A stretch of DNA of 64,000 nt from Longitalea luteola. GTDB lineage: Bacteria; Bacteroidota; Bacteroidia; Chitinophagales; Chitinophagaceae. The stretch lies in assembly GCF_017356035.1 (NCBI RefSeq), contig NZ_JAFIQX010000006.1:124001-188000 (forward strand), read 5' to 3'. The notes beneath the pieces are model-generated. The model made no database searches. It was not told the origin of the DNA and saw only the letters and a program-made list of their open reading frames with translations. Positions 8,336 to 47,209 of this stretch are shown here, piece after piece (within the stretch, counting starts at the first letter, position 1; every line of letters starts with the position of its first letter). The translations under genes were made by a program, and so were the position numbers.

Positions 8336-8416
8336 GCAAAACGCTTAACGCTGCACGCTGCAGAAAAATTTCTGTGCGTTCGGCGTTAAGCGTTCAGCTG
8401 TGAGCGTTCAGCGTTA
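8336..8416. repeat. Word-family B element (GCGTTAAGCG/GCGTTCAGCG)
   Basis: Repeated GCGTT(A/C)AGCG words stand in inverted arms (8337-8363 and 8381-8416) around a CAGAAAAATTTCTG palindrome. The right arm includes the panB stop codon (8414-8416). Related copies lie at 17905-17993 and 63703-63801. Confidence 0.75.
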
Positions 8417-9235
8417 ATATTGTTCCTTATCGTTGGGAAATTGTTTTGCCTTCACGTCGTTTACATAATTCTTTACGGCACCGGTGATCTGTTCATGCAG
8501 GTTCAGGTATTGCCGTAAAAAACGCGGTTTGAATTCGGTATTGATCCCTAACATATCGTGCATGACCAGTACCTGTCCATCGCAATACATGCCGGCGCCA
8601 ATACCGATCGTTGGTATTACCAGCGACTCAGATACTTCTTTGGCCAGCGCAGCAGGGATCTTTTCCAGCACAACCCCAAAACAACCTGCTTCCTGCAAAA
8701 GCTTTGCATCCTGGCGCAGTTTATTGGCTTCGGCCTCTTCCTTTGCACGAACGGTATAGGTTCCGAATTTGTAAATAGATTGAGGCGTTAATCCCAAATG
8801 CCCCATCACCGGAATGCCGGCAGCTACAATGCGCTTTACAGATTCCAGTACTTCTTCACCACCTTCCAGCTTTACGGCATGCGCACCGGTTTCTTTCATG
8901 ATGCGGATGGCAGAGGCCAGCGCTTCTTTTGAATTGGCCTGATAAGAACCAAACGGCAGATCAACCACTACAAAGCAACGGTTAATGCCCCGGATAACCG
9001 AAGAGGCGTGATAGATCATCTGGTCGAGGGTAATAGGCAGGGTGGTTTCGTGCCCGGCCATCACATTCGAGGCGGAATCACCTACCAGTATTACGTCAAT
9101 ACCGGCTTCATCGAATAAACGGGCAAAGGAAAAATCATAGGCCGTTATCATTGAAATTTTCTCGCCTACGGTCTTCATTCTTTGTAACGTATGGGTCGTT
9201 ACTTTTTTTACTTCTTTGTTAACGTGTACCGACAT
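8414..9235 (-). CDS. panB: 3-methyl-2-oxobutanoate hydroxymethyltransferase
   Basis: The first committed enzyme of pantothenate synthesis, transferring a hydroxymethyl group from methylene-tetrahydrofolate to alpha-ketoisovalerate to give ketopantoate. The product has 273 residues, the usual length. It shows the metal-binding [19 protein letters not shown] motif, [22 protein letters not shown] and the terminal PTIGIGAG loop, so it should be active. The ATG at 9235 ([11 protein letters not shown]) is chosen over an upstream start that adds 21 atypical residues. The stop codon lies inside a family-B repeat. No other pan gene is adjacent. Confidence 0.96.
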
Positions 9236-17904: not shown

Positions 17905-17993
17905 GCGTTAGGCCTTAACCGTTCAGCCTTCAACCGGCTTTTGCGTTTAGGGTTCTGCGTTAAGCGTTTGGCGTTCAGCATTAAGCGGAATTA
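17905..17993. repeat. Word-family B element
   Basis: Repeated GCGTTAGG, CCGTTCAGCC, GCGTTAAGCG and GCGTTCAGCATTAAGCG words, partly inverted, directly after the rimO terminator. Confidence 0.65.
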
Positions 17994-44960: not shown

Positions 44961-44991
44961 AATAAAACCTCCCGCCTTACTGGGCGGGAGG
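44961..44991 (-). terminator. Terminator of unit A
   Basis: CCTCCCGCC / GGCGGGAGG stem with a TTTTATTTT run on the minus strand; the conserved block of unit A directly abuts it. Confidence 0.8.
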
Positions 44992-45138
44992 CAATCTCTT
45001 TGGATGGTTTCCAAAAGGATCATTGATTCTGGTCTTTCATAAAATTGGATAACGAAACGATCGGCTATTACCGGGTACGGAATACGGATTATGGATTGCG
45101 TGCATCAAAGGGTACAAATGAGGCCCCACGGCCAGTTC
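44992..45138 (-). repeat. Conserved 3' block of unit A
   Basis: About 146 nt, roughly 90 percent identical to 46113-46259 with a single-base indel, so conservation is at nucleotide rather than protein level. It includes the recurring word CAAAGGGTACAAATG (plus-strand reading). Confidence 0.85.
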
Positions 45139-45327
45139 AGGTTTTCTTCGGATTATCGGATTCAGGTTCGTTTCATAAGGGCCGGCTTGGTTTCAAAGGA
45201 TACGATCAGTTTTCTTTTGGTCCGGATCAGGGTTTTCGGTTCAGGATTTGGATAACGGTGCATGCAAGGGTCAGATTCACTGGATGTTAGCGCTTCAAAT
45301 CAGTTCAAGGGTAGGGATCGGTTCGGA

Positions 45328-45549
45328 TTATTTAGGGTCATGTTTCTTATAGGGTTCAGGATTAGGTTTCGGTTTCATTTGCATTGGATTGTTATAACGA
45401 TGTAAAAATACACTCCCGAACCACCCCTTTGCAAATTTTGGCCACAATGCTTCTGCATATTGATGATTAGTAGCCGAATCGGGTAAAAACAAATATGTAG
45501 TCCTAAAGGTTATGTAACAGTAACAGCCTTTTGCTGTTGGAATATGCAT
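45328..45549 (-). CDS. Small protein of unit A, KFAKGWFG / KPKPNPEP type
   Basis: A frame of 73 codons from the ATG at 45549. Its second half, NHQYAEALWPKFAKGWFGSV followed by FLHRYNNPMQMKPKPNPEP, is closely matched by the frame at 46943-47086, while the N-terminal 25 residues differ. No signal peptide or membrane helix is clear. The Pro/Lys tail runs into the repeat body. No family is recognised; coding status is uncertain because the nucleotide sequence is also highly conserved. Confidence 0.4.
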   Translation of the reverse strand: MHIPTAKGCYCYITFRTTYLFLPDSATNHQYAEALWPKFAKGWFGSVFLHRYNNPMQMKPKPNPEPYKKHDPK

Positions 45550-46085
45550 ATGGGAATACCTGAGGGAAAACTAAACGGAACATATTACAGCACCTGCCGA
45601 AGCACATTTATCGGGAACAGAATGGCAAACGCAAGCAACAAGAAAGGAGAGAACCGTATTTTAGAAGTTCTTGACATAACTGTCGGCTGATGCTCAGATG
45701 CATTTTCGGTGATGTAAGGATATAAACGATCACGCCCTGCGCAAAAACAGGGCGTGTTGACAGAAGCATAATGATTATTTCAGCCTGTACTCACACTCAT
45801 ATACAGCTTATTTATGCTTCCCCGTGCGTGCCGACTTATTGATTTATCCTATATAACAATAACCGATTGTTGTTTTAGTTTCACGGTTAACTCCTTAACA
45901 AAAAGCTAAGGCATTGAACATGTTGTTCAAACGCATCTAATCAAAATCAATTTTTTGTAAACGTTGTATTCCTACAATCAGAAGCTTTACCGTAATTGCT
46001 GGCTGGAGAGGTTGATGACCAGTCTATCACCTACCATGAACCGAAGATAAGAATTACATTACGAATATAACAAAAAAATAATTTT

Positions 46086-46112
46086 AAAAAAAATCCCGAC
46101 TTTAAGTCGGGA
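46086..46112 (-). terminator. Terminator of unit B
   Basis: TCCCGACTT / AAGTCGGGA stem followed on the minus strand by eight T; it directly abuts the conserved block of unit B. Confidence 0.88.
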
Positions 46113-46259
46113 CAATCTCTTTGGATGGTTTCCAAGAGGATCATTGAATCTGGTCTTTCATAAAATTGGATCTCGCTGCGATCAGCTGTTACCGGGTACG
46201 GAATACGGATTATGGATTGCGTGCATCAAAGGGTACAAATGGGCCCCATGGCCAGTTGA
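46113..46259 (-). repeat. Conserved 3' block of unit B
   Basis: Second copy of the block at 44992-45138. The most divergent part is a 17-nt stretch in the middle (CTCGCTGCGATCAGCTG against AACGAAACGATCGGCTA). Confidence 0.85.
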
Positions 46260-46411
46260 CGGTCCTGCCTGCCTCTCAGCAGGTTTTCTACGGATGATTG
46301 GATGACATTCGTTTGATAAGATCAGGTTACGTTTCATCGGGTTTGGTCAATCATTTTCAAAGGTCAGGTTTTCTTTGGGCTTCATTGGATACGGCTACTT
46401 GATAAGGATCT

Positions 46412-46770
46412 GGTTCAGGGTTTAGGGATAACTACAAATCAGGCCTTAAAGGGTACGGTTTAATTCGAATAATTTAAAGGTTACCAGTGTCGGTCAGGGT
46501 CGTTTTCAAGGGCCAGGTTCAGGGTTCAGGGATAGCTACAAATCAGGCCTCAAAGGGTACGGTTTAATTCGAATAATTTAAAGGTTACCAGTGTCGGTCA
46601 GGGTCGTTTTCAAGGGTCAGGTTCAGGGTTTAGGGATAGCTGCAAATCAGCCTTCAAAGGGTACGGTTTAATTCGAATAATTTAAAGGTTACCAGTGTCG
46701 GTCAGGGTCATTTTCAAGGGCCAGGTTCAGGATTTAGGGATTGCTACAAATCAGCCCTCAAAGGGTACGG
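46412..46770. repeat. 104-bp tandem repeat, 3.4 copies
   Basis: Units begin with GGTTCAGG at 46412, 46516, 46620 and 46724, exactly 104 bp apart. The three full units differ at only a few positions; the fourth matches for about 45 bp. The period is not a multiple of three. Each unit contains CAAATCAG, AAAGGGTACGG and TTCGAATAATTTAAAGG. Confidence 0.95.
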
Positions 46771-46942
46771 ATCGTTCGGGTTATATTCAGGGTGCTATTG
46801 CTACATTTCAGGTCCGGATCTCAGTTTCAAAGGATATCAGCTGCTGGTTTTTTCTTCGGATCATTGGATATCGCTACTCGATCAGGCCTGCCGGCAGGTT
46901 CAGGGTACGGTTGGGTTCGGATTATTAAGGGTCATGTTTCTT

Positions 46943-47086
46943 CTAGGGTTCAGGATTAGGTTTCGGTTTCATTTGCATTGGATTGTTATAACGATGTAAA
47001 AATACAGTCCCAAACCACCCCTTTGCAAATTTTGACCACGCTGCTTCAACAGTTTGATGATTAAACCCAAAATCAAATAAAGACAT
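46943..47086 (-). CDS. Small protein of unit B, KFAKGWFG / KPKPNPEP type
   Basis: From the ATG at 47086 a 47-residue product runs through NHQTVEAAWSKFAKGWFGTV and FLHRYNNPMQMKPKPNPEP to a stop. An upstream extension to a GTG at 47152 would start inside the terminator of the receptor gene, so it is not used. It is homologous to the frame at 45328-45549 over about 47 residues. No promoter of the usual type was found, so it may depend on read-through from the receptor gene. Confidence 0.4.
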   Translation of the reverse strand: MSLFDFGFNHQTVEAAWSKFAKGWFGTVFLHRYNNPMQMKPKPNPEP

Positions 47087-47137
47087 ATACTTAGCCTTAG
47101 TGGTTAGGAGAGTGCGCGCATAAGTGAAATAGGGAGT

Positions 47138-47185
47138 AAAAAAGCGTGGCACGGTTTCCGTTCAAACGACGTTTAACCGTGCCAC
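47138..47185 (-). terminator. Terminator of the second siderophore receptor gene
   Basis: GTGGCACGGTT / AACCGTGCCAC stem with a TTTTTT run on the minus strand, 24 nt after the stop. Confidence 0.9.
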
Positions 47186-47209
47186 GTTAATTATATGTTA
47201 GCCTTACTT

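Follow-up and report, generated by a model that had tools for sequence, protein, structure and literature searches.

Two related units in the genome of Longitalea luteola (GCF_017356035.1) are very probably noncoding RNA genes, as judged from the anatomy and conservation of their DNA. The window analyzed is the 64,000-nucleotide (nt) stretch at positions 124,001-188,000 of the forward strand of NZ_JAFIQX010000006.1. Unit A (~47110-46086) and unit B (~45516-44961) lie on its minus strand in the same orientation. They have the properties expected of intergenic noncoding RNA genes: a conserved locus, a promoter-like element, an intrinsic terminator and no coding signal over most of their length, the MQMKPKP part of a small frame excepted. 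The reading we favor, at a little short of an even chance, is that the units are self-contained noncoding RNA genes in which the repeat body is the working part and acts as a multi-site binder.

Layout and conservation of the two units

A sequence-only reading of this DNA had described two same-orientation units on the minus strand, and two direct repeat pairs bear this out. The 5' pair (45301-45512 and 46895-47106) is 84% identical over 212 nt, and the 3' pair (44992-45126 and 46113-46247) is 92% identical over 135 nt. The features of the units are as follows, in window coordinates.

47030-47110, minus strand: unit A conserved upstream region (AAGTATATG..TTTA and TTAATCATCAA elements; column conservation, 12 units), probably regulator-binding DNA
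46993-47029, minus strand: unit A promoter-like element TTTG-N21-TATTTTTACATC (G000:C40:170993-171029), overlain by the small frame of the sequence-only reading
46086-46992, minus strand: unit A predicted noncoding transcript, ~905 nt, G-poor (folding z +1.79 and +0.95)
46412-46770, minus strand: unit A body, a 104-nt tandem repeat array of 3.5 copies (repeat search)
46113-46171, minus strand: unit A 59-nt conserved 3' module, ATCCAAT..GAAAGAC..CCTCTTGGAAACCATCCAAAGAGATTG
46086-46112, minus strand: unit A intrinsic terminator (TCCCGACTTAAAGTCGGGA and T run)
45436-45516, minus strand: unit B conserved upstream region
45399-45435, minus strand: unit B promoter-like element TTTG-N21-TATTTTTACATC (G000:C40:169399-169435)
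44961-45398, minus strand: unit B predicted noncoding transcript, ~436 nt (folding z +0.96)
44992-45050, minus strand: unit B 59-nt conserved 3' module
44964-44991, minus strand: unit B intrinsic terminator (CCTCCCGCCCAGTAAGGCGGGAGG and T run)

The comparison set for the genus consists of 10 Niastella/Longitalea genomes, the window's own (G000) and nine relatives (G001-G009), with the suffixes A and B marking unit copies. The window locus, termed locus I, is present in all 10, so the sequence-only reading's suggested check for copies in related genomes came out positive. It comprises 12 units, two each in G000 and G001 and one each in the other eight genomes. The layout is beyond chance because the 5' block, the 3' module and the terminator recur in 10 of 10 genomes. 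A paralogous second locus, termed locus II, is described below. Behind a TonB-dependent receptor gene, at 47140-47186 (minus strand) and just upstream of unit A, a perfect 12-bp inverted repeat precedes a T run; as a likely terminator, it would part unit A from that gene.

A promoter-like element underlies most of the small frame

The DNA around the KFAKGWFG...KPKP frame aligns without gaps across the 12 locus-I units. All 12 contain an invariant TTG followed after exactly 21 nt by TAYTTTTACATCG, and the KFAKGWFG part of the frame overlies this promoter-like block (TTG, 21 nt, TAYTTTTACATC). The ~80 bp upstream are also conserved; 10-column bins ahead of the TTG have a mean column conservation of 0.75-0.84. 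The pattern TTG-N21-TAnTTTTACATC is common to all 12 locus-I units and to 8 of the 9 locus-II units with a readable promoter region.

The promoter of the Bacteroidota primary sigma factor (sigma-ABfr type) is described as a -33 TTTG and a -7 TAnnTTTG, the -33 motif not being seen in Flavobacterium johnsoniae (PMC7366714). The -7 box here is TAnTTTTA, so its last base differs from the published element, and the TTG at a 21-nt distance recurs at both loci. The element resembles a Bacteroidota-type promoter save for that base and is a putative promoter. A search of the 10 genus genomes with the pattern placed 15 of 19 matches at loci I and II, and the reversed pattern matched once. In 294 family genomes, nine matches fell at loci I and II and two elsewhere (G041 and G075), with four for the reversed control. 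A generic sigma-70 promoter scan found 4 promoters versus 5.2 in shuffled sequence. An inverted repeat that might serve as a regulator operator upstream of the promoters was seen by eye in some sequences of each locus and was inconsistent in locus II, and this candidate was set aside.

The sequence-only reading described a small frame with a shared KFAKGWFG...KPKPNPEP part in both units. This frame is not supported as a gene, and most of it is promoter-like DNA that does not evolve like coding sequence. The ratio of nonsynonymous to synonymous variation (pN/pS) is 6.57 over the 27 codons upstream of the core and 2.97 over all 43 codons in eight units (the 12 without G009, G001A, G001B and G006), and the three codon positions upstream of the core differ about equally (0.328, 0.329 and 0.277). 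Stops interrupt the 43-codon block in the four omitted units, in G009 behind the core. Amino-acid purifying selection is thus absent over the frame as a whole, and we rejected it as a small protein gene.

A peptide gene of some kind is an alternative reading. It would comprise the whole frame or, more plausibly, encode a tiny MQMKPKP.. peptide ahead of a 3' untranslated region rich in repeats. Eight of the 12 units leave the 43-codon frame open. Behind the core, pN/pS over 16 codons is 0.37 in the eight units or 0.56 in 11 units, and variation there is concentrated at the third position (0.133 versus 0.055 and 0.065, 11 units). The low ratio rests on 13 variable columns, however, and G009 lacks the MQMKPKP.. 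part. Locus II has the promoter pattern too, but the sequence in between is quite different, and Pfam gave no match for the two window frames. A peptide product is highly improbable on these data. The candidate MQMKPKP.. peptide would lie at the start of the unit A transcript, at 46900-46990 on the minus strand.

A fixed 3' module directly precedes divergent terminators

The 59-nt module, ATCCAAT..GAAAGAC..CCTTTTGGAAACCATCCAAAGAGATTG, stands directly before the terminator. It ends in ...AGAGATTG at 46113 in unit A and at 44992 in unit B, and the terminator hairpin begins at the next base in each case. The two hairpins, TCCCGACTTAAAGTCGGGA and CCTCCCGCCCAGTAAGGCGGGAGG, are unlike in sequence, as the sequence-only reading had noticed. 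That reading gave the conserved block a length of about 146 nt. Its conservation holds and its length does not, because across the genus and both loci the block reduces to the 59-nt module with less conserved sequence upstream. A predicted hairpin starting at the first base after the module and followed by T's was found for 22 of 22 modules (12 at locus I and 10 at locus II), and its sequence differs between most of them. The proposals that the block is a noncoding signal and that selection maintains a defined transcript end are both supported by this arrangement.

A stem can be formed within the module (90.7% of cells paired versus 23-64% when the pairing is slid). Covariation, which the sequence-only reading had suggested as a check on the block, was absent: none of 10 proposed pairs showed a compensatory change among 14 distinct rows, and none of five pairs in the RNAalifold structure had changed on both sides. 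The conserved hairpin was rejected on these grounds, and the absence of covariation indicates that the primary sequence is what is conserved.

The predicted transcripts carry a variable repeat body

The predicted RNAs extend 322-936 nt from the core to the terminator in the 12 units, with 243-874 nt between the core and the 3' hairpin. The transcript would be A-rich, and G is the scarcest base in all 12 units (0.149-0.189). Folding was scored as z, the energy relative to dinucleotide shuffles. In 10 of 12 units the predicted fold is no more stable than that of shuffles (z -0.47 to +2.79): G009 at -0.47, unit B at +0.96, G008 at +0.39 and seven others at +0.06, +0.99, +1.04, +0.97, +0.95, +1.25 and +2.79, with unit A also scoring +1.79 in a separate run. 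The remaining two, G004 (-2.05) and G001B (-2.1), fold somewhat better than their shuffles.

The bodies are built from quickly changing short words, which in the RNA read CGUACCC, CCUUUGAAA, UGAUUUGUAGC and AACCCUGA. CGTACCC occurs 32 times and ATCCGTA 27 times, each in 12 of 12 units, and TTGTAGC occurs 16 times in seven units versus 0.08 expected. Repeats of the GCGTTCAGCGTTAA type occur in the window at 8376-8417 and 17943-17987, and by eye also inside several locus-II bodies and the G006 locus-I body; palindromes like CTCCCGACTAAAGTCGGGAC were likewise seen by eye in some bodies. Because both lie within bodies, the bodies evidently accept intergenic repeats.

A paralogous locus shares the design and the body words

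A covariance model of the module detected the 12 locus-I modules and one more per genome in all 10 genomes (E 2.8e-11 to 0.011 for the latter), three of these 10 locus-II modules having been in the alignment from which the model was built. All remaining matches had E ≥ 0.3, save a chance-looking one in G008 at E 0.007. The window genome's own locus-II copy (L084, G000:C33:613186-613656) is the weakest at E 0.011, weaker than the G008 match, and was accepted because of its terminator, promoter and neighbors. It adjoins a globin-like gene and a conserved 153-amino acid gene without a Pfam match. A 131-amino acid gene, which has a bacterial-globin Pfam match in the window's genome, adjoins locus II in 10 of 10 genomes. 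Six of the 10 locus-II stretches also hold genes that we take to be nitrous-oxide-reductase accessory genes.

The locus-II promoter region lies on the contig in 9 of 10 genomes, and the one readable unit without the pattern has TGTG in place of the TTG. The locus-II core GCAGTTCCCAACCTAAGCCCGTTT, with up to three mismatches, was found once in each of 6 of 10 genomes and always at locus II. A third locus was sought with CGTAYCCTTTGAA, which gave 16 matches in the 10 genomes (reversed control, 3). Six of these are at loci I and II, and the other 10 had 3-12 word matches per 413 nt versus 17, 36 and 38 at three known sites.

The bodies of the two loci have words in common. Forty-two seven-letter words common to the locus-I bodies occur 93 times in the locus-II bodies; 200 shuffles gave a mean of 21.0 (sd 5.5) and a maximum of 37. 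The 93 occurrences are not independent because part of them comes from one segment conserved between orthologs. The reverse complements of the same words occur once.

These data bear on what part of the transcript is the product. The main rival to a working body is that processing or an internal start yields a short 3' RNA of ~80-100 nt, consisting of the module and terminator, with the body as tolerated transcribed spacer. Of the transcribed sequence, it is the 3' module that aligns across the two loci. The bodies are free to vary in length and content, and the inserted repeats favor a spacer. The words common to both loci on one strand only oppose it, as does the promoter-like element, which sits at the opposite end from the module in all 12 locus-I and the nine readable locus-II units, although no search was aimed at a promoter beside the module. 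We regard a short 3' product as unlikely.

Strand also matters for the proposal that the units are DNA-level elements or decayed repeats without transcription, such as a binding-site array or a local duplication. Repeats seen elsewhere in the window are, by eye, inserted in some bodies, which speaks for such an element. However, a promoter-like element at one end and a terminator at the other are retained while the terminator sequence changes, and the word bias is strand-specific. This explanation is very unlikely.

Proposed mode of action and its standing

In the favored reading, a promoter resembling the Bacteroidota type would start the transcript near CATCGTTATAACA, and the conserved ~80 bp upstream would probably be bound by a regulator. 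The predicted product is an A-rich, G-poor RNA, in most units no better folded than shuffles, in which an array of changing words is followed by the fixed 3' module and then the intrinsic terminator. This RNA may act in trans as a multi-site binder whose repeated motifs, being single-stranded, would be bound by an RNA-binding protein or pair with mRNAs. The role of the 3' module with its terminator could be to supply a defined, stable end or a docking site for a protein. Because the same design occurs twice per genome, at the window locus and at the globin-linked locus, the two RNAs would probably be paralogs under common regulation whose partners overlap. More tentatively, and somewhat doubtfully, the units may belong to a new class of bacterial RNA that is long, regulated and for the most part without structure. 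Its expandable array of repeats would form a multivalent binding scaffold or sponge, with a paralogous pair of genes in each genome and the class confined to one genus.

Several observations weigh against a working repeat body in a stand-alone RNA gene. The last base of the -7 element departs from the published consensus (TTTA versus TTTG), and the 16 codons behind the core show the third-position excess and low pN/pS given above. Bodies tolerate inserted repeats and size changes from 243 to 874 nt, and their middle may be only spacer. Descent and tandem duplication account for part of the sharing of body words, and one ortholog-conserved segment contributes to the locus-II count. Two of the 12 units, G004 and G001B, fold better than shuffles, and the module lacks compensatory pairs. 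Predicted pairing of RNA-A ends with RNA-C, the separate element between the units described below, gave z values of -0.59 to +2.35, not beyond shuffles.

Relation to known RNAs

Protein-titrating sponge RNAs such as CsrB and CsrC carry repeated binding motifs, which are GGA hairpin loops. The units are like them in carrying arrays of short motifs in one RNA, although the words here are A- and C-rich and not GGA loops. Small RNA (sRNA) biology in Bacteroidota is known mainly from Bacteroides.

The published description of FopS/GibS of Bacteroides thetaiotaomicron is of a multicopy paralogous sRNA family with single-stranded seeds, FopS consisting of a 5' single-stranded seed stretch and a terminator (PMC11697453). 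An R1 seed sequence and binding of RbpB are marks of that family. The RNAs predicted here are likewise paralogous and belong to the same phylum. They are set apart from that description by a predicted length of 322-936 nt, an expandable repeat body and a conserved 3' module. An antisense-like RNA, in which the repeated words are seeds for several mRNAs as in FopS/GibS, would overlap with the mRNA branch of the multi-site binder. Short repeated words and little predicted structure in the body are consistent with it, and the FopS/GibS account provides a paralogous sRNA family of this mode in the same phylum. Length and layout are unlike those of FopS, and we consider this explanation distinctly unlikely.

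OLE, ROOL and GOLLD are also long noncoding RNAs, which are described as ornate and structured. The units differ in that their length varies more than twofold and they have no Rfam match. Membership of such a structured class was rejected, because z lay between -0.47 and +2.79 in all but two of the 12 units (-2.05 and -2.1) and the 3' module has no compensatory pair. At the gathering threshold, Rfam had no match in the window, four locus-I stretches or 10 locus-II stretches; nine sub-threshold matches at the locus had E values up to 5, the best scoring 26.6 bits versus a gathering threshold of 47. Searches of the open-license literature on Niastella and Chitinophagaceae found no paper that, by its title and opening lines, describes such RNAs.

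If transcribed, the units would be long noncoding RNA genes in Bacteroidota. Two paralogous loci that agree in promoter geometry and combine fixed ends with a freely evolving middle of repeats make a compact natural experiment. Ten species spanning 243-874 nt from core to hairpin would allow one to ask whether repeat number sets function, and the promoter geometry common to both loci offers a handle on the regulator.

Distribution and genomic neighborhood

As far as searched, the locus is confined to the genus Niastella/Longitalea. At the DNA level, unit B matched all 10 genus genomes and none of the 29 non-genus genomes in a set of 39. The wide searches scored few candidates per genome among the matches listed (at most 4 in a 147-genome family set, 18 in a 294-genome set and 27 in a 198-genome set), so distant relatives may be missed. 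Within this scope, unit B matched none of the 145 others in the family set of 147. The 3'-module model at E ≤ 0.001 found only the window's own genome among 198 order genomes. In 294 family genomes it gave E ≤ 0.01 matches in six genus members and weak matches in 5 of 288 others, none of which by eye had an adjoining GC-rich hairpin and T run. A scan of named genome contigs for the exact core TGTAYTTTTACATCGTTATAACA returned eight stretches, all from Niastella species, a Niastella metagenome-assembled genome or Longitalea arenae.

At least one gene homologous to a window neighbor lies in the fetched stretch of each of the nine relatives. The TonB-dependent receptor gene was found in 6 of 9, a sigma-factor gene in 5 of 9 and an enolase-fold gene, presumably dipeptide-epimerase-like, in 5 of 9, the rest being outside the fetched stretch or absent. 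A 111-amino acid gene resembling the window's DUF6686 gene, as judged by its opening residues, is present in 7 of 9. An origin in a mobile element was rejected: unit B had no match in plasmid or phage records, the exact core had none in viral contigs, and the neighbors are conserved. A tree of the A and B copies left seven of its nine inner branches open and gives no age for the unit duplications.

A separate RNA-like element lies between the units

Immediately downstream of unit A, all 10 genomes have a further promoter-like element and a 202-326-nt region in which AATAAGTCGGCACGCAC is invariant. This element, termed RNA-C, is unlike units A and B in sequence. Its features in the window are the following.

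46042-46074, minus strand: RNA-C promoter-like element TTTG-N21-TATCTTCG (sequence and 10-genome alignment)
45731-46042, minus strand: RNA-C, a separate conserved RNA-like element with the invariant AATAAGTCGGCACGCAC (alignment)

Rfam had no match for RNA-C in the window. A search of 244 family genomes with its motif, allowing one mismatch, matched four genus members and three others (reversed control, 1), and the three non-genus matches look by eye like gene sequence without the surrounding element. RNAalifold placed 25 pairs in RNA-C, two of which have changed on both sides, one of them in the terminator stem (C-G in six, A-U in three and G-U in one). The RNA-C terminator at 45715-45735 (minus strand) has a poor T run here (ATCGTTTATA), and most relatives have longer T runs.

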